64,000 bases of DNA, taken from NCBI RefSeq assembly GCF_035189165.1, contig NZ_CP045246.1, forward strand, positions 1,922,001 through 1,986,000, written 5' to 3'. The notes below the pieces were generated by a model. It worked only from the letters and a program-made list of their open reading frames with translations. It made no database searches and had not been told where the DNA came from. Source of the DNA: Arthrobacter sp. JZ12 (lineage in GTDB: Bacteria > Actinomycetota > Actinomycetes > Actinomycetales > Micrococcaceae). Both the position numbers and the translations under genes were made by a program. Positions 24,727 through 62,910 of this stretch are shown here, in pieces. The stretch's first letter is position 1. Every line of letters starts with the position of its first letter.

Positions 24727-25500
24727 CTAGCGGCGCGCAGGGTTGGAAAGCCGGCCGATGCCCTCGATCTCGACCTCGTACCGCTGCCCTTCGCTGATGA
24801 GACCCACGCCGGACGGCGTTCCGGTGAGGATGACGTCTCCGGGCAGGAGCGTGAAAGCCTGGGATACGTAGGAGACAAGTTCCCGCACTCCCCAGATCAT
24901 CTGGCTTGTGGAGCCGTCCTGCTTCAGCTCGCCGTCGAGCCGGCCGCGTACGGCCAGGTCTTCGGTATCAAGCTCGGTCTCGATCCAGGGCCCGATCGGG
25001 CACGAGGTGTCAAAGCCCTTCGCCCTTGCCCACTGGTTGTCGGTCTTCTGGACGTCGCGGGCGGTGAGGTCATTGGCGCAGGTGTACCCGAAGATGACGT
25101 CGTCCACGCGCTCAAGGGGCACGTCCTTGCAGATGCGGCCGATGACTACCGCAAGTTCGGATTCGTACGAGATCTCCTCGGAGAAGGAGGGAAGGACAAC
25201 CGGGTCCCCCGGACCGACCACCGAGGTGTTCGGCTTGAGGAACATGAGAGGAGCCGGCGGGACCTCGTTCCCGAGTTCCTTGGCGTGCTCCGCATAGTTG
25301 CGGCCGATGCCGATTACCTTGCTGCGCGGAATCACCGGCGCAAGGAGGCGGACATCCTCCAACTTGTGCCGTGCGCCCGTCGGCTGCACTCCTCCATAGA
25401 AAGGATCACCGCTGATGACAGCTACTTCCTCGCTGCCCTCGGGCCCCTCCACCAGGCCGAAGGTCGGATCATCATTGAGCACAAATCGGGCGATACGCAT
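24727..25500 (-). CDS. Fumarylacetoacetate hydrolase (FAH) family protein
   Basis: A 257-residue FAH-fold enzyme. Family members hydrolyse, decarboxylate or tautomerise 2-oxo acids with a divalent metal. Motifs: IGIGRNYAEHAKELG, FLKPNTSVVGPGDPVVLP, the metal-ligand region ISYESELAVVIG, YTCANDLTARDVQK and ILTGTPSGVG. A TAGCCT box ends 6 nt before the ATG, suggesting leaderless mRNA. The reaction cannot be narrowed down; candidates are acylpyruvase and oxaloacetate decarboxylase-type activities. Confidence 0.88.
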   Translation of the reverse strand: MRIARFVLNDDPTFGLVEGPEGSEEVAVISGDPFYGGVQPTGARHKLEDVRLLAPVIPRSKVIGIGRNYAEHAKELGNEVPPAPLMFLKPNTSVVGPGDPVVLPSFSEEISYESELAVVIGRICKDVPLERVDDVIFGYTCANDLTARDVQKTDNQWARAKGFDTSCPIGPWIETELDTEDLAVRGRLDGELKQDGSTSQMIWGVRELVSYVSQAFTLLPGDVILTGTPSGVGLISEGQRYEVEIEGIGRLSNPARR

Positions 25501-25594: not shown

Positions 25595-25741
25595 TCAGTG
25601 CGGCCAGTCATCGATGAGAGTGCCGTAAGTAACCACCGGCGCCTTCGTGTAGCCGGCCGGTGCATCCTTGGCTACGGCCGCGGTACCACCTGCCAGTGCC
25701 ATTGCCGCGGTCAGTACCAGAACTGCGGAGAATCTTTTCAT
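25595..25741 (-). CDS. Small secreted peptide precursor 1 (candidate signalling peptide)
   Basis: A 48-residue product beginning MKRFSAVLVL with a basic start, a hydrophobic core and a signal-peptidase-type AVA-K site near residue 25. The predicted export product is about 24 residues and ends in GTLIDDWPH. The start ATG 25741 has AAAGGAAC upstream. The gene is divergent from a TPR-only protein (start 25947), the same layout as peptide gene 2 and the second TPR gene. The (D/N)WP(H/G) element is shared by both peptides. I do not recognise a family. A Phr-like or RRNPP-type pheromone role is inference from layout; a small secreted protein of other function is possible. Confidence 0.65.
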   Translation of the reverse strand: MKRFSAVLVLTAAMALAGGTAAVAKDAPAGYTKAPVVTYGTLIDDWPH

Positions 25742-25794
25742 GTCGGTTCCTTTACAGGGTCGGAGACTAGCCGTTTTTGACACCAGCTTTTTTC

Positions 25795-25800
25795 AGTATA
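25795..25800 (-). promoter_or_regulatory. -10 box of peptide gene 1 (conserved TATACTGAA)
   Basis: On the minus strand TATACT, within TATACTGAA, lies about 54 nt before the peptide start. The same nine bases occur at the matching place before peptide gene 2 (27306-27314). No consensus -35 is present 17 nt upstream in either case. Confidence 0.5.
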
Positions 25801-25946
25801 CGAACGGAGTGTGATATGCGACACCCCGCGCATAATCTTTCCATCGTTGCCCCCTGTTTGATAAGCACCCTTTGCGATTAAAGTGAGGTATCCGCTGAAC
25901 ACGGCAGGATTCCCTGCGTCGGCGGCACATTAAGCGAGGGGGAAGC

Positions 25947-26975
25947 GTGGCGGCTCAGCGGTCGGGTGATCTGGTCATGTATGAACTTCGCGCGCGCGAG
26001 GCCTGGACCCAGCGCGATTATTCCGTCGCGCGCGCCATGGCAGCCTCTGCCTTGGAGCTTGCGGCGCAGGCGGAGGACCACCACGCGCACTGGAACATGA
26101 CGTTCCTGCAGGCCGAATGCCTGCGCGAGGAAGGAACGCTCGATATGGCACTCGAGGCAGCTCAATCCCTCTGCGAGGATCCTCTTACCCGGGAGTCCAA
26201 GGCGCTCAAGGCGCGCGTTAACACCCTGCTCGCCGTTTGCCTGCAGGGGCTGGGCCATCTTGAACGCGCGGTGGAAGCTGCCTCCATCGCAGTGGAGAGT
26301 GCGGCGACCGTCGAGAGCGCTCCCGAACTCCAGATCGAGGCGCACCATGCCCTAATCGCATCGCTTGCCGAGAGCGACCGACTGGACGATGCCTGGAGTG
26401 CCTGCCTGGATCTATCGACACTGATCACGGCGGCAATCCACGCCCAAACGGCCGGCAAGGCGTATTGGGTGATCGGAAACGTCGCCTTCATGCGCCACCA
26501 GGTGACCGACGGCACCCGCTTCCACCGCCTTGCTGCGGATCACCTCTCCCCCAACAACGACCTCGACCTGTGGGCACGGTTCAACCGCGCTTCGGCATCG
26601 AGGCGACTGGCTGCGGGTGTGGTTGATGCGGAAACGCTTGAATGCATTGAACGCGCGGAGGTGGCCAGCTCCATCGTGGGCGGGACCGAACGGGACCACC
26701 TCCAGCTCTCCCTCACCCGGGCGCACTGGCTATTTCTCACCGGTCAGCTGAATGCCGCCGTCGAGCGGTTGCGGCCCATCTGCGCAGAAGGCACGGTACT
26801 TTCGCGGCAGACAGAAGGTGAAGCCAACCTCCTACTCGCCCAGGCGCTCACGGCTCGCGGGGAGGAATTGGAGGCGCTGGCGCACCTGGAAACAAGCGAG
26901 CAATGCTTCAACGACGCCGGCGCGCACGATCGGGCTGCTCATGTGCGGGAGATCGTGGCGGGGATGAGGAGCTGA
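25947..26975 (+). CDS. TPR-repeat protein 1 (putative peptide receptor, no DNA-binding domain)
   Basis: A 342-residue all-helical protein built of degenerate tetratricopeptide repeats (for example ARAMAASALELAAQAEDHHAHWNM, LRPICAEGTVLSRQTEGEANLLLAQAL). The start is GTG 25947 with GAGGGGGAAG upstream. It is clearly homologous to the TPR gene at 27482: both contain TLECIERAE, SSIVGG/ASIVGG, LTRAHWLFLTGQ and (V/I)ERLRPIC. There is no helix-turn-helix, and the 205-bp gap upstream leaves no room for one in frame. The layout is that of Rap-type TPR receptors next to a peptide gene. Function is not known. Confidence 0.75.
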   Translation: MAAQRSGDLVMYELRAREAWTQRDYSVARAMAASALELAAQAEDHHAHWNMTFLQAECLREEGTLDMALEAAQSLCEDPLTRESKALKARVNTLLAVCLQGLGHLERAVEAASIAVESAATVESAPELQIEAHHALIASLAESDRLDDAWSACLDLSTLITAAIHAQTAGKAYWVIGNVAFMRHQVTDGTRFHRLAADHLSPNNDLDLWARFNRASASRRLAAGVVDAETLECIERAEVASSIVGGTERDHLQLSLTRAHWLFLTGQLNAAVERLRPICAEGTVLSRQTEGEANLLLAQALTARGEELEALAHLETSEQCFNDAGAHDRAAHVREIVAGMRS

Positions 26976-26996
26976 GACCTCTATCCAGGAACGCCC

Positions 26997-27049
26997 AGAA
27001 TGAGAACGGACTGTTGGATCGGTGTGATCCAACAGTCCGTTCTCATTCT
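26997..27049. terminator. 24-bp perfect hairpin between TPR gene 1 and peptide gene 2
   Basis: The arm 26997-27020 is exactly complementary to 27026-27049 around a 5-nt loop (GGTGT). It lies between the ends of two convergent genes, so a bidirectional terminator is the simplest reading. The stem is unusually long and perfect, has mixed composition and lacks a U-tract. Confidence 0.6.
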
Positions 27050-27078
27050 GACCATTTCCTGGCCAGATAAGGCGCAGA

Positions 27079-27240
27079 CTAGACAGACGTGGAGATGCTG
27101 CCCGGCCAGTTGCCAACCTTCGCCGTCGTGGTGGTGGGGGTGGTGCTACCGGGCCAGTTGCCGACCTTTGCCTGAGCAGCCGTGCCACCCCCAACCAGTA
27201 GCAATGCAGTCAGCAACAGTGTTGCGGAGACCTTCTTCAT
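27079..27240 (-). CDS. Small secreted peptide precursor 2 with duplicated KVGNWPGS motif
   Basis: A 53-residue product: MKKVSATLL start, hydrophobic core, and an AQA-K cleavage site near residue 24. The exported part holds two copies of AKVGNWPGS separated by a Thr/Pro linker (TTPTTTT). The two DNA copies differ at synonymous positions while the residues are identical, which points to selection on the peptide. AAGGAAAAAG precedes the ATG. It is divergent from TPR gene 2. A precursor with repeated mature units recalls pheromone precursors, but no processing site other than the signal peptide is proven. Confidence 0.7.
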   Translation of the reverse strand: MKKVSATLLLTALLLVGGGTAAQAKVGNWPGSTTPTTTTAKVGNWPGSISTSV

Positions 27241-27308
27241 TCTTTTTCCTTGTCCGTTGACGAATGGAACAGGCGAAATTGCCCACCCCACGATTGCACA
27301 GCCACTTC

Positions 27309-27314
27309 AGTATA
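27309..27314 (-). promoter_or_regulatory. -10 box of peptide gene 2 (conserved TATACTGAA)
   Basis: TATACT within the shared TATACTGAA element on the minus strand, about 69 nt before the peptide start. The matching element precedes peptide gene 1. Confidence 0.5.
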
Positions 27315-27481
27315 GGGAGAACAAAGAACTTCTAACTGGCCTTTTTTCTCATCTTTTCCGCAGTTTTCAGCGCCGATAAGGCAAACCCACCGTAAACGCC
27401 GCTGATCCGCCCCTCTTGTGCGCAAGATGCTGACACAATGGGCGCTGGGGTCGAAACCTTCGATGATCATGGAACGAGGCA

Positions 27482-28525
27482 ATGAGTCAGAAGCAACAGC
27501 CGGGAGAGCACGTGTTTCTGGAATTGCGTGCACGTGATGCCTGGAACCAAAGGGATTATCAACTCGCTCTGGAAACGGCAACAGAAGCTGCTCGGATTGC
27601 GAGGCACAACGCAGACGACAACGCCTGGTGGAACATGACCTTTCTGATGGCGGAGTGCCTGAAAAAGACCGGCGACTACGCAAGCGCGCAACACCTTGCA
27701 GAATCGCTGAAGGTCGACGCGCTAACCTCGCGGTATTCGGATCTGGCGGCCCGGGTATCCATATTTCTTGCCGGTGTTATGCAAGGACAAGGAGATCTGT
27801 CAGGGGCGGCGACGGAAGCAAGGTGCGCAGTTACCAGTGGCGCGTCTGCCACAGGGTCTCCAGAGCTGCGCATTACCGCGCAGCATGCGCTCATCGCTGC
27901 CCTTGCCGAGAGCGACCGAATAGACGACGCCTGGGAAGCGTGCCTTGAGTTGGCTGAAATAATCACGCCCGCGGTTGCCCCCCAAATCGCTGGCGAGGCG
28001 TACTGGGCCATAGGCAACGTGGCATACCTGCGTCGGGACACCGTGGCGGGAACCGACTATCACCGACGGGCGGCCGGCAGTCTCTCCCCTTCCAATGACC
28101 TGGATCTCTGGGCGCACTTCAACCGTGCTTCGGCGGCGCTCCGGCTTGCCGCCGGAGTGGTGGAACCAGAGACTCTTGAATGCATTGAGCGGGCAGAGCT
28201 CGCCGCGTCCATTGTCGGCGGGAGCGAGCGGGACAAGCTTGAGCTGTCCCTGACGCGAGCGCACTGGCTCTTCCTCACCGGCCAGTATGATGCAGCAATC
28301 GAGCGGCTCAGGCCCATCTGCCGGTCCGCCACCAACATCGCCAGCCAGACCGCGGCCGAGGCTCATCAGCTGCTCGGCCAGTCGCTGACGCACTCCGGGG
28401 ATCCGCTTGAAGGTTTGTTTCAACTTGAGCGAAGCCAGGAGCTGTTCCGCCAAGCCGGTGCATTGGATCGCGAAGCGCAGGTTGCGCGGCTCATCGATGA
28501 CGTGCACCGATCGGTGGAGTCCTGA
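27482..28525 (+). CDS. TPR-repeat protein 2 (putative peptide receptor), coupled to GGDEF-EAL gene
   Basis: A 347-residue TPR-like helical protein, paralogous to the 25947 gene over its whole length (ELRARDAWNQRDY at the N-terminus, SLSPSNDLDLWAHFNRASAALRLAAG in two blocks, LTRAHWLFLTGQYDAAIERLRPIC in two blocks). No HTH, membrane segment or signal peptide is seen, so it should be cytosolic. It is divergent from peptide gene 2 with a 241-bp gap. Its stop is 3 bp before the GGDEF-EAL start, so the two proteins are made together and may interact. A receptor role is inferred. Confidence 0.75.
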   Translation: MSQKQQPGEHVFLELRARDAWNQRDYQLALETATEAARIARHNADDNAWWNMTFLMAECLKKTGDYASAQHLAESLKVDALTSRYSDLAARVSIFLAGVMQGQGDLSGAATEARCAVTSGASATGSPELRITAQHALIAALAESDRIDDAWEACLELAEIITPAVAPQIAGEAYWAIGNVAYLRRDTVAGTDYHRRAAGSLSPSNDLDLWAHFNRASAALRLAAGVVEPETLECIERAELAASIVGGSERDKLELSLTRAHWLFLTGQYDAAIERLRPICRSATNIASQTAAEAHQLLGQSLTHSGDPLEGLFQLERSQELFRQAGALDREAQVARLIDDVHRSVES

Positions 28526-28528
28526 TCC

Positions 28529-30130
28529 ATGCCGGAACAGTCAGAGGAGACAGACCAGGCAGACGCCTCGCAGCCGATGGACCAACCCACGGCTGACCCC
28601 CGGCTGAGCCTGCTGGTTGATGGAATTGTCCGTCTCTCCCGGGGAGATCTCAGCAGCCGGATCGAGCCCTCCCCCGCGCGGGACGACGTCGATGCGGTGA
28701 TTACCGGCGTGAACCTTCTCGCCGAGGAACTCGAGCTGGTATACCGCCAATTCGAACAGAGGGTGGCGGACCGCACGGCAATGCTCCACCAGGCTCATCT
28801 GGACATGAAGCAGATGGCCATGACGGATGCGCTCACGGGACTGTCCAACCGGGTGGAACTGGCGGAGCACATTGACGAACGCCTGAAGGCCCACCGGAAG
28901 GGCGCTCCTCCTCCTGCCCTGCTGCTGCTCGATCTGGACTCCTTCAAGAACATCAACGACCGATTCGGGCACGATGCCGGCGACGGCGTGCTCCGCGAAG
29001 TCGCCGACAGGCTGCGCAGGATAGTTCGGCCCACCGATACTGTGGCCCGCCTTGGCGGAGACGAGTTCGCGATCCTGGTTGCGGACGCCACCATGGAGAT
29101 TGCGCTGGCCGTTGCAAATCGCGCACTCGAGGTACTGAGCAAGGATGTCAACGTCGAAGGATTCAACGTTCACCCGCGTGCCAGTATCGGGCTCCGCGTC
29201 GCTTCGAAGGACCATACGGCCGGGTCCCTGCTGAGTGAGGCCGACACCGCAATGTACGCGGCCAAGAACGAGGGCCGCAGCACCATCAAGGCCTTCGAAC
29301 CGGTCATGCTGTACAGCAGGCAGCTCCGCACGATGATGGCGTCAGAGCTCAGAGATGCCATCGGGACCGAACAGCTCCGCGTGTTGTACCAGCCGGTGGT
29401 CAATCTACGGGACGGATCGATCAACTCCGCGGAGGTTCTGGTCCGCTGGGAGCATCCGACGCGCGGAACGATCTCCCCCGAACTCTTCATCCCGCTGGCC
29501 GAGGAGATCGGGGCAATATCCGATCTGGACCGCTGGGTTATGACCGCTGCCCTTCAGCAATATGTGGTTTGGCAGGCGGCGCAGCTGATCCCGGACGAGT
29601 TCCAGCTGCGGGTGAACATCTCCGCAATCGAACTGCGGCAGCTCGACATGGTCGATTTCGTGCGCGGACTGCTAAAGCGGACATCGTTGCCCGCGAAGGC
29701 GCTGGTCATCGAAATCACGGAATCTGCGTTTGTTGGCGGTGGAGAGGTTGAGACCTACACGCTGCTAAGCCTCAAACAGCTCGGGGTCTGCATCGAGATC
29801 GACGATTTCGGCACCGGCTATTCCTCCATCAGCTATCTGCGGCGACTGCCCGTGGACATGGTGAAGGTGGACCGCTCGATCCTTCGCGAACCGGCAACGG
29901 GAAGCTGGCAGCCCGAATTCGTGGCGGCGGTGTTCCACCTGATCAGCGCCGCCGGCCTCGGCGCCGTGTTCGAAGGAATAGAGACAGCGGAGCAGGCGGA
30001 GTTCCTTCGCTCACTGGGCAACATCAGCGGCCAGGGCTACTACTTCAGCAAGCCGCTCGCCGAACCGGACATCACCTCGCTGCTCAGATCCGGCAGCCGC
30101 CTTCCTCTCGCCTCCTCCACCGCAGACTGA
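28529..30130 (+). CDS. GGDEF-EAL protein (diguanylate cyclase / c-di-GMP phosphodiesterase)
   Basis: A 533-residue bifunctional-type protein. Residues about 25-85 look like a HAMP-related helical linker without any membrane segment. The GGDEF domain has an intact active site at 176-180 and an inhibitory I-site RPTD at 167-170. The EAL domain (about 275-525) reads EVL at 302-304 in place of EAL but keeps NIS, the Glu of EITES, DDFGTGYSS, the Lys of MVKVDRS, FEGIET and QGYYFSKPL, so phosphodiesterase activity is plausible. It makes or breaks the second messenger c-di-GMP. The gene immediately follows TPR gene 2 (3 bp gap), which suggests the TPR protein controls it. Confidence 0.92.
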   Translation: MPEQSEETDQADASQPMDQPTADPRLSLLVDGIVRLSRGDLSSRIEPSPARDDVDAVITGVNLLAEELELVYRQFEQRVADRTAMLHQAHLDMKQMAMTDALTGLSNRVELAEHIDERLKAHRKGAPPPALLLLDLDSFKNINDRFGHDAGDGVLREVADRLRRIVRPTDTVARLGGDEFAILVADATMEIALAVANRALEVLSKDVNVEGFNVHPRASIGLRVASKDHTAGSLLSEADTAMYAAKNEGRSTIKAFEPVMLYSRQLRTMMASELRDAIGTEQLRVLYQPVVNLRDGSINSAEVLVRWEHPTRGTISPELFIPLAEEIGAISDLDRWVMTAALQQYVVWQAAQLIPDEFQLRVNISAIELRQLDMVDFVRGLLKRTSLPAKALVIEITESAFVGGGEVETYTLLSLKQLGVCIEIDDFGTGYSSISYLRRLPVDMVKVDRSILREPATGSWQPEFVAAVFHLISAAGLGAVFEGIETAEQAEFLRSLGNISGQGYYFSKPLAEPDITSLLRSGSRLPLASSTAD

Positions 30131-61043: not shown

Positions 61044-61120
61044 GTTCATGCGGGCAATGTGCGCGGTGCTCTGCCCGTCACGGTGCAGAACACGTTCAGG
61101 GGACGTGGAGCAAGGTGGCC

Positions 61121-61126
61121 TAGACT
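61121..61126 (+). promoter_or_regulatory. -10 box of the peptide-binding protein gene
   Basis: TAGACT lies 50 nt before ATG 61177. Unlike the leaderless genes, this leader contains a ribosome binding site (AAGGA). Confidence 0.45.
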
Positions 61127-61176
61127 GGGGATTCCGTTCCCGCCTTTACCCACCACACGCGCGCCCCAAGGAAGCT

Positions 61177-62910
61177 ATGCCACCGAGTCCCAAGCACCGC
61201 CGTCGTGCATCCTGGACTCTTTTGCAGCGTCTTGCCGGAGCAGCCGCTGTCCTGGGATTGACCGCCTGCACAGCGGTGGATCCGGCGCCGGTCACTCCCA
61301 GCAGCCAGGCACCCACGGAGCAGGCCACGGCAGCCCTGGGCAATCCCACCGGCTCGTTCACCTTCGGCACCGCTGCGGGGCCGGTAGGGCTCGATCCCGC
61401 ACTTGTAGCAGACACCGAGTCATACCGCATCACTCGCCAGATCATGGAGGGGCTTGTCGGCGTGGATCCGCTGACGAGTGAACCAGCTCCCCTGCTCGCA
61501 ACTTCCTGGGAGGAACGGGACCAGGGACGGGCATATACTTTCGACCTGCGCCAGGACGTGGTCTTCCACGACGGTGAACCGTTCAACGCGGAGGCAGTGT
61601 GCGCCAACTTCGAGCGCTGGTACACCATGCCGCCGGAAACCCGGGAACTCGACGCCACCATTGCGTTCAAGTCGGTTTTCAAGGCCTTCTCGGATGCGCC
61701 CGGGGAATCGCTCTACGAGTCCTGCCGGCCCCTCGGAGAGTACAAGGTGCTTATTCAGCTGACGGGCCGCCTGACCTCATTCATTCCGGCCCTCGCGCTG
61801 CCCGCTTTCGGAATGGCATCACCGCGTGCCCTCGAGGAGCTCGACGCGAACCGCCTGGACACCGAACGTGACGGCCGGCAGCTGTCCAAATTCGCGCTCA
61901 ATCCCGTGGGCACCGGACCCTTCACGTTCGAGGCGTGGTCCGATGATCAGGTGATCCTCAACTCCTTCGAAGGGTACTGGGGCAACCGTGGCGAAATCAG
62001 GACCGCTACCTTCCGCACCATCCCACACACTGACGCCCGGCTTCGCGCCCTCCTGCGTGGTGAGATCGACGGCTACGACCTCGTCACTGTGGACAACGCA
62101 GCGGAACTGGCGCGCGAGGGACAGATCATCCTGCAGCGCGATCCCTACTCCGTGTTGTATCTCGGCATGAACCAGGACTTCCCGGGCGTCGACGATGTCC
62201 TGTTTCGGCAGGCAGTGGCGCATGCGATCGACAAACAGGCACTGATCGAAGGCCGTTTCCTGAACGGGACCAGTCCCGCACAGCAGTTCCTGCCGCCCAA
62301 GCTCGGAGTGTCGGACGAAGACATCACCGAGTACGAATACAACCCCGAGAGAGCGGCCGAGCTCCTAGCGGAGGCGGGATACGACGGCGAGCCCCTTCCC
62401 TTCCACTACCCGCGCAACGTATCGCGGCCCTACCTGTCCTCTCCCGAGAAGGTATACGCCGAACTGAGCCGTCAGCTGACGGCGGCAGGCTTCAATATCC
62501 AGCCGGTTCCCACGGAGTGGTCGGAGGGGTACCTTGAGGCAGTCCAGAACGACGACGACAGGGCATTCCATCTGCTCGGCTGGAGCGGCAGCTACCAGGA
62601 CCCGGATACTTTCGTCGGTCCTCTCTTCGCTGCCTACGGCGAGGAGTTCGCCTTCAGGGACGCGCAGCTCTTCAGCAAGGTTGCGCGTGCCGTCACCCTT
62701 CCGAACGGCGAGGAACGAACCGCTGCCTACCGCGACATCAGCGACTCGATTGCCGCTGACCTGCCTGCCGTCCCCCTCGCATTTCCAATCTCCGCCGCCG
62801 TCGTATCTCCGCGCGTCCTCACCTACCCTGTCAGCCCGGTGATGCACGAAGTCTTCAACGCAATTGACCTGGCCGACGTCGAGCCGGAAACGTCCACCGG
62901 CGGCAGCTGA
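61177..62910 (+). CDS. ABC transporter substrate-binding lipoprotein (SBP family 5, peptide/nickel type)
   Basis: A 577-residue extracytoplasmic binding protein: basic start, hydrophobic region, lipobox LTAC (Cys31), then the SBP_bac_5 domain. Blocks: DPALVADTESYRITRQIMEGLVGVD, YTFDLRQDVVFHDGEPFNAEAVCANFERW, GTGPFTFEAWSDDQVILNSFEGYWG, YLGMNQDFPGVDDVLFRQAVAHAID and the C-terminal VPLAFPISAAVVSP. ATG 61177 has AAGGA 5 nt upstream; earlier in-frame sequence is the promoter. Permease and ATPase genes are not adjacent, so it is an orphan binding protein here. Cargo is probably oligopeptides. Confidence 0.92.
   Translation: MPPSPKHRRRASWTLLQRLAGAAAVLGLTACTAVDPAPVTPSSQAPTEQATAALGNPTGSFTFGTAAGPVGLDPALVADTESYRITRQIMEGLVGVDPLTSEPAPLLATSWEERDQGRAYTFDLRQDVVFHDGEPFNAEAVCANFERWYTMPPETRELDATIAFKSVFKAFSDAPGESLYESCRPLGEYKVLIQLTGRLTSFIPALALPAFGMASPRALEELDANRLDTERDGRQLSKFALNPVGTGPFTFEAWSDDQVILNSFEGYWGNRGEIRTATFRTIPHTDARLRALLRGEIDGYDLVTVDNAAELAREGQIILQRDPYSVLYLGMNQDFPGVDDVLFRQAVAHAIDKQALIEGRFLNGTSPAQQFLPPKLGVSDEDITEYEYNPERAAELLAEAGYDGEPLPFHYPRNVSRPYLSSPEKVYAELSRQLTAAGFNIQPVPTEWSEGYLEAVQNDDDRAFHLLGWSGSYQDPDTFVGPLFAAYGEEFAFRDAQLFSKVARAVTLPNGEERTAAYRDISDSIAADLPAVPLAFPISAAVVSPRVLTYPVSPVMHEVFNAIDLADVEPETSTGGS

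Follow-up and report, generated by a model that had tools for sequence, protein, structure and literature searches.

A segment of the Arthrobacter sp. JZ12 chromosome, lying within the 64-kb window that we analysed (the whole stretch of 64,000 nt, contig NZ_CP045246.1, forward-strand positions 1,922,001 to 1,986,000), contains two small genes for precursors with signal-sequence-like N-termini, each divergent from a gene for a tetratricopeptide repeat (TPR) protein, and a gene for a GGDEF-EAL enzyme of cyclic di-GMP (c-di-GMP) metabolism (Table 1). An original prediction, made from the DNA letters, had described two secreted-precursor genes (48 and 53 residues) facing away from two TPR genes, the second of which lies 3 bp from the GGDEF-EAL gene. 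The coordinates were confirmed, and the two TPR proteins proved to be paralogues with 57% identity across 334 aa. While this layout stood, the KVGNWPGS repeat and the Trp-Pro motif shared by both peptides had gone unmentioned: Trp-Pro occurs in the C-terminal GTLIDDWPH of peptide 1 and in each of the two KVGNWPGS units of peptide 2. Inspected by eye, the N-terminus of each precursor is short and basic and is followed by a hydrophobic core and an AxA-like end. An element resembling a ribosome-binding site (RBS), AAAGGAA, is found 5' of peptide 1, whose last 5-8 residues are the candidate for the mature signal.

Table 1. Features of the Arthrobacter sp. JZ12 locus at 25595-30130, in window coordinates (HTH, helix-turn-helix).
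Feature	Position	Strand	Description
Peptide precursor 1	25595-25741	(-)	48 aa, MKRFSAVLVLTAAMALAGGTAAVAKDAPAGYTKAPVVTYGTLIDDWPH; signal-sequence-like N-terminus; C-terminus ...GTLIDDWPH
Divergent intergenic region, peptide 1/TPR1	25742-25946		
TPR1	25947-26975	(+)	GTG start; 342 aa; HTH-less TPR receptor-like protein
Perfect inverted repeat	26996-27050		two 25-nt arms around a 5-nt loop; lies where the TPR1 and peptide 2 genes converge
Peptide precursor 2	27079-27240	(-)	53 aa, MKKVSATLLLTALLLVGGGTAAQAKVGNWPGSTTPTTTTAKVGNWPGSISTSV; signal-sequence-like N-terminus; KVGNWPGS unit twice
Divergent intergenic region, peptide 2/TPR2	27241-27481		
TPR2	27482-28525	(+)	347 aa; HTH-less TPR receptor-like protein, paralogue of TPR1
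GGDEF-EAL protein	28529-30130	(+)	533 aa; HAMP-like N-terminus; starts 3 bp after TPR2

Neither TPR1 nor TPR2 has a signal sequence or a long hydrophobic stretch, which fits the cytosolic TPR array of RRNPP(A) receptors. Pfam support for the repeats is weak: the best TPR1 match (E = 0.0054) fell under the cut-off, and TPR2 matched ANAPC3 above it (E = 5.6e-7) and TPR_12 below it (E = 3e-4). Neither protein matched an NCBIfam family at E <= 0.01.

Homologues of TPR2 (E <= 1e-10) were found in 221 of 395 genomes of the bacterial family, representing 17 of 32 genera. A profile search of 240 loci, several of them overlapping, yielded 160 distinct receptors once 82 duplicates and 12 receptors with less than 750 bp of upstream sequence had been dropped. 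The upstream regions were scored with a strict test, which demanded a short divergent open reading frame (ORF) with a signal-like N-terminus (export being called by a crude signal-sequence score, not SignalP), an RBS-like element, and Trp-Pro either within the last six residues or repeated. A divergent, signal-like Trp-Pro ORF was present at 140/160 receptors, in 138 cases together with an RBS-like element; like RRNPP(A) receptors, these proteins and both TPR proteins of the window have as their neighbour a propeptide that is predicted to be exported. After clustering at 80% identity, 61 of the 77 representatives had a peptide ORF. Three further receptors adjoin a leaderless Trp-Pro ORF and 17 had none by our script, though at two of these (L059 and L202) a Trp-Pro peptide with a signal sequence is visible by eye. 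By comparison, the strict test was passed by 3/3200 shuffled upstream regions and by 1/870 windows taken elsewhere in loci of at least 10 kb, controls that cover the 138 ORFs of the strict test and not the leaderless ones. Within the 64-kb window, cut into 900-bp pieces and read on both strands, 2/142 pieces passed, and these held precisely the peptide 1 and peptide 2 genes. The original prediction had named beforehand the outcome that would speak against it, peptide ORFs that are not conserved beside the TPR genes of relatives; the ORFs were instead found beside most receptors and almost never in the controls.

The peptide genes also appear to be protein-coding. Pooled ratios of nonsynonymous to synonymous substitution rates (dN/dS) in four groups of peptides (n = 18, 6, 54 and 12; pairs not independent) were 0.24, 0.16, 0.20 and 0.22, on account of which the ORFs are under purifying selection and look translated, in line with the translation that the original prediction had required. 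Orthologues of peptide 1 ending in GTLIDDWPH adjoin TPR1 orthologues in two loci (L085 and L086), and orthologues of peptide 2 carry two to four GNWPD units (L004, L005, L006, L007 and L008). Across 301 occurrences of the motif, obtained in a search that required Trp-Pro, the position two before Trp was occupied by G in 277 cases, N in 18 and D in 6, and the residue following Pro was mostly D (212), N (30), H (19) or Y (15). On the receptor side, the positions conserved in 95% or more of the 160 proteins include W175, G178, N179, H194, W210, F213 and R221 (TPR2 numbering), which are candidates for the peptide-binding site.

Some loci depart from the usual precursor. The leaderless Trp-Pro ORFs lie divergent from HTH-TPR receptors (loci L130/L053, L131/L060 and L137/L057); their sequences, MRNFVSFISGRVNWPF, one ending in ...CVGDWPD and one with two DDWPF units, recall SHP-type signals. 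In L202, an IGNWPDPM-type frame is interrupted by a stop before its second unit and another unit lies beyond, apparently a natural decay of one repeat.

Extending the reading frames upstream revealed that many of the receptors carry an XRE-type HTH domain ahead of the TPR part (Pfam HTH_31 in 6/8 proteins scanned, E from 1.4e-7 to 5.7e-14). By profile, 94 of the 160 receptors have the HTH and 66, including TPR1 and TPR2 of the window, do not. The two classes differ in their genomic company: in the DNA stretches examined, a GGDEF-EAL gene lies beside 62/66 HTH-less receptors versus 0/94 HTH receptors (Fisher p = 4.5e-40, with the caveats that the receptors are related and that for many HTH receptors, 79/88 by first labels, only 1.4-6 kb downstream was covered). 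Among the four HTH-less exceptions, the GGDEF-EAL gene of the TPR1 copy in L002 is past the end of that piece yet within the window, the gene in L066 contains an internal stop and the stretch of L063 is 1.4 kb long; the fourth is L119. This association strengthens the link to c-di-GMP that the original prediction had proposed. Its comparison with RRNPP systems likewise gains from the sister receptors, because their XRE HTH and TPR parts follow the layout of Rgg and PlcR. The precursors differ as well, with a single unit in 43/62 of those belonging to HTH-less receptors and two to six units in 76/78 of those belonging to HTH receptors (for example, five IGNWPDPM in L161 and six VGDWPH in L162), a layout like that of processed pheromone precursors.

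Several loci of the HTH class have features of their own. A conserved TTGACA...TGTCAAG dyad, its halves roughly 36 bp apart, lies between the peptide and HTH-TPR genes in 12/12 of the rows listed, out of up to 16 aligned (L073, L075, L068, L044, L045 and others), and may be an operator or a promoter pair. In L158, L161 and L162, genes that by eye resemble an ABC exporter and purC/purD adjoin the pair; in L158 and L162 they converge with the peptide gene. In three genomes belonging to the window's genus, a second HTH-TPR receptor has no peptide gene found nearby (L125, L126 and L127) and is possibly an orphan or eavesdropping receptor.

The family extends beyond the immediate relatives of the window. 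A search of 396 genomes of the order (E <= 1e-15), in which the best five candidates per genome were scored so that counts are lower bounds, gave at least 26 matches, 22 of them in the window's family and four in one other family. Seven loci of that other family include two with VGGSWPT repeats (L118 and L121), one with a TWPA end (L123) and four with neither (L119, L120, L122 and L124). In 396 genomes of the phylum (E <= 1e-12) there were four matches, two in the window's family, one in the other family and one in Streptomyces (G1097). The Streptomyces HTH-TPR protein is present in 36/199 genomes (E <= 1e-40), and of the 36 matching plasmid records 35 are from Streptomyces and one is from Kitasatospora. 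A divergent ORF ending near [VIL][DEGN]WP occurs in 14/30 Streptomyces loci versus 4/1500 shuffles. In S. globisporus C-1027 and Streptomyces sp. NBC_00239, in each case on a plasmid, the ORF has a signal sequence and two VEWP units and carries the annotation hypothetical protein; a plasmid of Streptomyces sp. SAT1 has a DIGWP ORF that is leaderless and unannotated. This branch is tied to the window receptors by one profile match (E = 1e-21), together with layout and motif.

Among Streptomyces, HTH-TPR genes with divergent [VIL][DEGN]WP ORFs are found in L242, L243, L245, L246, L251, L252, L254, L255, L257, L258, L260 and L262-L264, and in L272-L274; in L267 a similar ORF is co-directional with the receptor. 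Some of these pairs reside on linear plasmids, with carrier-protein, thioesterase, P450 or nonribosomal peptide synthetase genes around them, and peptides might there control biosynthetic clusters.

The GGDEF-EAL protein of the window matched the Pfam families GGDEF (E = 1.7e-43), EAL (E = 1.4e-63) and, below the cut-off, HAMP (E = 1.6e-4). At the GGDEF site, the RxxD I-site and the EAL positions checked, taken here as the catalytic positions, no residue is missing, which extends the original prediction of an enzyme with nearly all EAL residues; 40/42 near-full-length homologues keep these positions, and the remaining two have gaps at them. Beyond these three domains no recognised sensor domain was found in the protein, nor anything corresponding to the fused signal-binding domain of RpfR, and a separate TPR protein could therefore act as its sensor. 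It is one of two GGDEF proteins found genome-wide (E <= 1e-5), and is likely to be the effector of the TPR receptors.

A GGDEF-EAL gene follows the TPR gene or genes in 22/22 distinct genomes of the genus that were compared. The cassette occupies a conserved chromosomal site, with fah upstream in 20/22 genomes (G248 is at a contig end, and in G345, whose TPR1 has no peptide gene, there is 1.1 kb upstream without fah) and ilvE downstream in 21/22 (the stretch from G299 stops short of ilvE). Its contents vary. The duplicated module described in the original prediction is present in the window and is special to some relatives, the two-TPR-gene layout occurring in 6/22 genomes. In 14/22, a DUF7793/SpoIIAA-like gene precedes the GGDEF-EAL gene, and 9/22 contain, inside the cassette, an oppositely oriented GH18 gene with a carbohydrate-binding module and a large glycosyltransferase gene (assigned by Pfam; 816 aa in Soil782, with a QRRRW motif seen by eye). 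GGDEF-EAL, GT2 and GH18 genes also occur together in other genera, both in L166 and L167, from distant genera, where the TPR proteins are about 30% identical and 14 kb show no match to gltX, fah, ilvE or leuB, and in L175 and L177, where they adjoin gltX. Because GT2 and GH18 genes recur beside GGDEF-EAL, the cassette points to c-di-GMP-dependent exopolysaccharide as its output.

Taken together, these data lead us to read the locus, with a probability of roughly three in four, as two paralogous peptide-signalling modules and their effector, belonging to an RRNPP-like family of Actinobacteria in which an HTH-less branch controls c-di-GMP. Each short gene would encode a precursor that leaves the cell by the Sec route and is trimmed extracellularly to a short x-x-Trp-Pro-x peptide. 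This peptide would then be brought back in, probably through an Opp-type permease, for binding by the divergently encoded TPR protein. In the sister branch the XRE-bearing receptor would then act on transcription in the manner of Rgg and PlcR; in the branch of the window the HTH-less receptor would act by protein contact on the neighbouring GGDEF-EAL enzyme, either directly or via the DUF7793/SpoIIAA-like protein encoded between them in many relatives. The resulting change in c-di-GMP could affect exopolysaccharide production and surface life. Since two paralogous pairs with different peptides (DDWPH and GNWPG) stand beside one enzyme, the arrangement suggests two signal inputs to it. Whether these genes amount to an undescribed, Actinobacteria-wide Trp-Pro peptide language, read by TPR receptors of two kinds of which the HTH-less kind switches a c-di-GMP enzyme directly, with neither a transcription factor nor a two-component system, is in our estimation evenly balanced.

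A number of observations weigh against this reading. The 17/160 receptors with no detectable peptide gene include L125-L127, L119, L120, L122, L124 and L087 (the TPR1 of G345), and three precursors have no signal sequence. Receptor counts are not independent events, because the receptors were fetched by their likeness to TPR2 and many are close kin (54 of the peptides fall in one group). About two changes of HTH state were counted on the tree, using first, regular-expression labels that missed the HTH in five receptors (L060, L112, L113, L120 and L122) included in the 94/160 by profile; with the receptors related and so few changes, the linkage of HTH-less receptors to GGDEF-EAL is one strong, long-kept association, not many independent events. 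In Streptomyces, the [VIL][DEGN]WP pattern was fixed after a first look at these loci, 16/30 of which have no such ORF, and for the closest relatives of L241 the distance to the ORF is 0.8-2.3 kb, with a carrier-protein gene intervening in two annotated plasmid loci. The cassette of the window itself has no DUF7793 or glycosyltransferase gene, and the sole genome-wide glycosyltransferase match is weak (E = 2.7e-7, 23% identity), so that an exopolysaccharide output should not be assumed for this strain. Finally, a comparison of the family profile with PDB sequences gave generic or designed TPR-like proteins among the matches listed (60 of 94) and no relation to the TPR parts of Rap, NprR, Rgg or PlcR; for one HTH-TPR member, the matches to PlcR (E = 0.013) and ComR (E = 0.2) were confined to the HTH.

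Another partner for the receptors has also to be considered. The pair could be a real signalling pair that acts mainly on something else, the GGDEF-EAL gene being a neighbour kept by synteny, since the fah and ilvE genes that flank the cassette across the genus could by themselves hold such a group together; in 9/22 genomes, moreover, GT2 and GH18 genes intervene between the TPR and GGDEF-EAL genes. We regard this as unlikely, given that TPR genes remain linked to GGDEF-EAL genes in other genera, where the proteins have diverged and 11-14 kb contain no match to gltX, fah, ilvE or leuB (L166, L167, L168 and L170-L174), and that none of the 94 HTH-bearing receptors lies beside such a gene.

Alternatively, the TPR protein might detect the precursor before it leaves the cell, monitoring the cell's own secretion capacity instead of serving as the receptor of an imported pheromone. 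The leaderless ORFs of L053, L057 and L060 could act without Sec export, and for a secretion sensor an envelope polysaccharide would be a fitting output. A signal-like N-terminus in 140/143 Trp-Pro ORFs, with the motif either close to the C-terminus or present as two to six units, as in processed pheromones, makes this decidedly improbable. We find it very improbable, too, that the products are precursors of antimicrobial or otherwise modified peptides, akin to ribosomally synthesized and post-translationally modified peptides (RiPPs), with the TPR protein serving in immunity, as a chaperone or in maturation. Short precursors, repeated cores and a conserved Trp do resemble some RiPP precursors, and three annotated Streptomyces loci lie among biosynthetic-type genes; against this, no recurring modifying enzyme was noticed in the loci inspected, where no systematic search for one was made, and the DNA-binding domain of 94/160 receptors, like the c-di-GMP enzyme beside 62/66 of the others, fits signalling. 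That the small ORFs reflect chance open frames between genes, hydrophobic short ORFs being common where GC is high, has a negligible likelihood in view of the two controls (3/3200 and 1/870), the dN/dS of 0.16-0.24, the motif at 140/160 receptors and the two Streptomyces homologues annotated as genes.

The preferred reading, peptide signalling through TPR receptors, has its closest parallels in the RRNPP(A) family, whose receptors have at their N-terminus either an HTH (Rgg, PlcR, NprR, PrgX and AimR) or a three-helix bundle (Rap); the HTH is found in the sister branch and is absent from the window proteins. As in Rap-Phr of Bacillus, a TPR receptor without a DNA-binding domain, presumed to act by protein contact, is paired with a gene for a short propeptide, here predicted to be exported. 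Unlike Rap-Phr, whose genes are co-directional, the genes here are divergent, and they differ further in phylum, in the lack of any sequence relation found, in the Trp-Pro core and in the link to GGDEF-EAL instead of a phosphorelay. The sister branch shares with PlcR-PapR, NprR-NprX, Rgg-SHP and ComR-ComS an XRE HTH, a TPR part and an adjacent gene for a short peptide, predicted here to be secreted; in contrast to those systems, the window proteins are HTH-less, no relation in the TPR domain was detected and the hosts are Actinobacteria. With no sequence relation to the founding members found, we describe the system as one that, judged by its genes, works like RRNPP, and do not file it as a member. 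The division into HTH and HTH-less receptors parallels the split of the RRNPPA family into Rgg/PlcR and Rap, as described in the available text of PMC9765709, and Rap-Phr propeptides with several pheromone units are known (PMC11343458, available text).

A different parallel is RpfR of the diffusible signal factor (DSF) system. In RpfR, a GGDEF-EAL protein, the fatty-acid signal is bound by one of the enzyme's own domains; here, by contrast, the peptide is proposed to act via a separate TPR protein. Common to both would be a quorum signal tied to c-di-GMP (PMC6361424, in the part available). With described quorum sensing in Actinobacteria the system would share its phylum and signalling within a population, the signals known there, gamma-butyrolactones and others, typically being small molecules according to the accessible portions of PMC10075063 and PMC4748050. 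For Arthrobacter, the accessible part of PMC4748050 gives only bioinformatic evidence of AAA, LuxR_C_Like and REC domains. RRNPPA receptors are treated in Firmicutes and viruses only in the sections available of PMC9765709 and PMC10075063, the latter having limited its search to these groups, and the examples named for RRNPP in the available part of a 2026 review (PMC13220807) are from Firmicutes. Among the titles and abstracts of the open-licence PubMed Central (PMC) literature, none was found that describes the system, which may be in print elsewhere, and the motif strings occurred only in unrelated papers.

Intracellular peptide pheromones read by TPR proteins have been described for Firmicutes (PMC10075063 and PMC9765709, available text), and a conserved family present in relatives of Arthrobacter, in a second family of that order and in Streptomyces would mean that Actinobacteria have their own peptide language. 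If the reading is correct, cell-cell signalling would be joined directly to c-di-GMP, and probably to exopolysaccharide. The loci supply defined short peptides that are open to synthesis and testing at once, and may offer handles on Streptomyces biosynthetic clusters.

Searches with TPR2 of plasmids (E <= 1e-10) and phages (E <= 1e-5) gave no match. Between positions 25500 and 28600, a simple scan for sigma-70-like promoters gave no match, including in both divergent intergenic regions, and a terminator scan requiring a T-run listed none; the inverted repeat between the TPR1 and peptide 2 genes is probably a bidirectional transcription terminator. The genome encodes five binding proteins of the Opp/Dpp type (SBP_bac_5), and one SBP_bac_5 solute-binding gene, a possible candidate for peptide re-import, lies in the same window at 61048-62910 (+).

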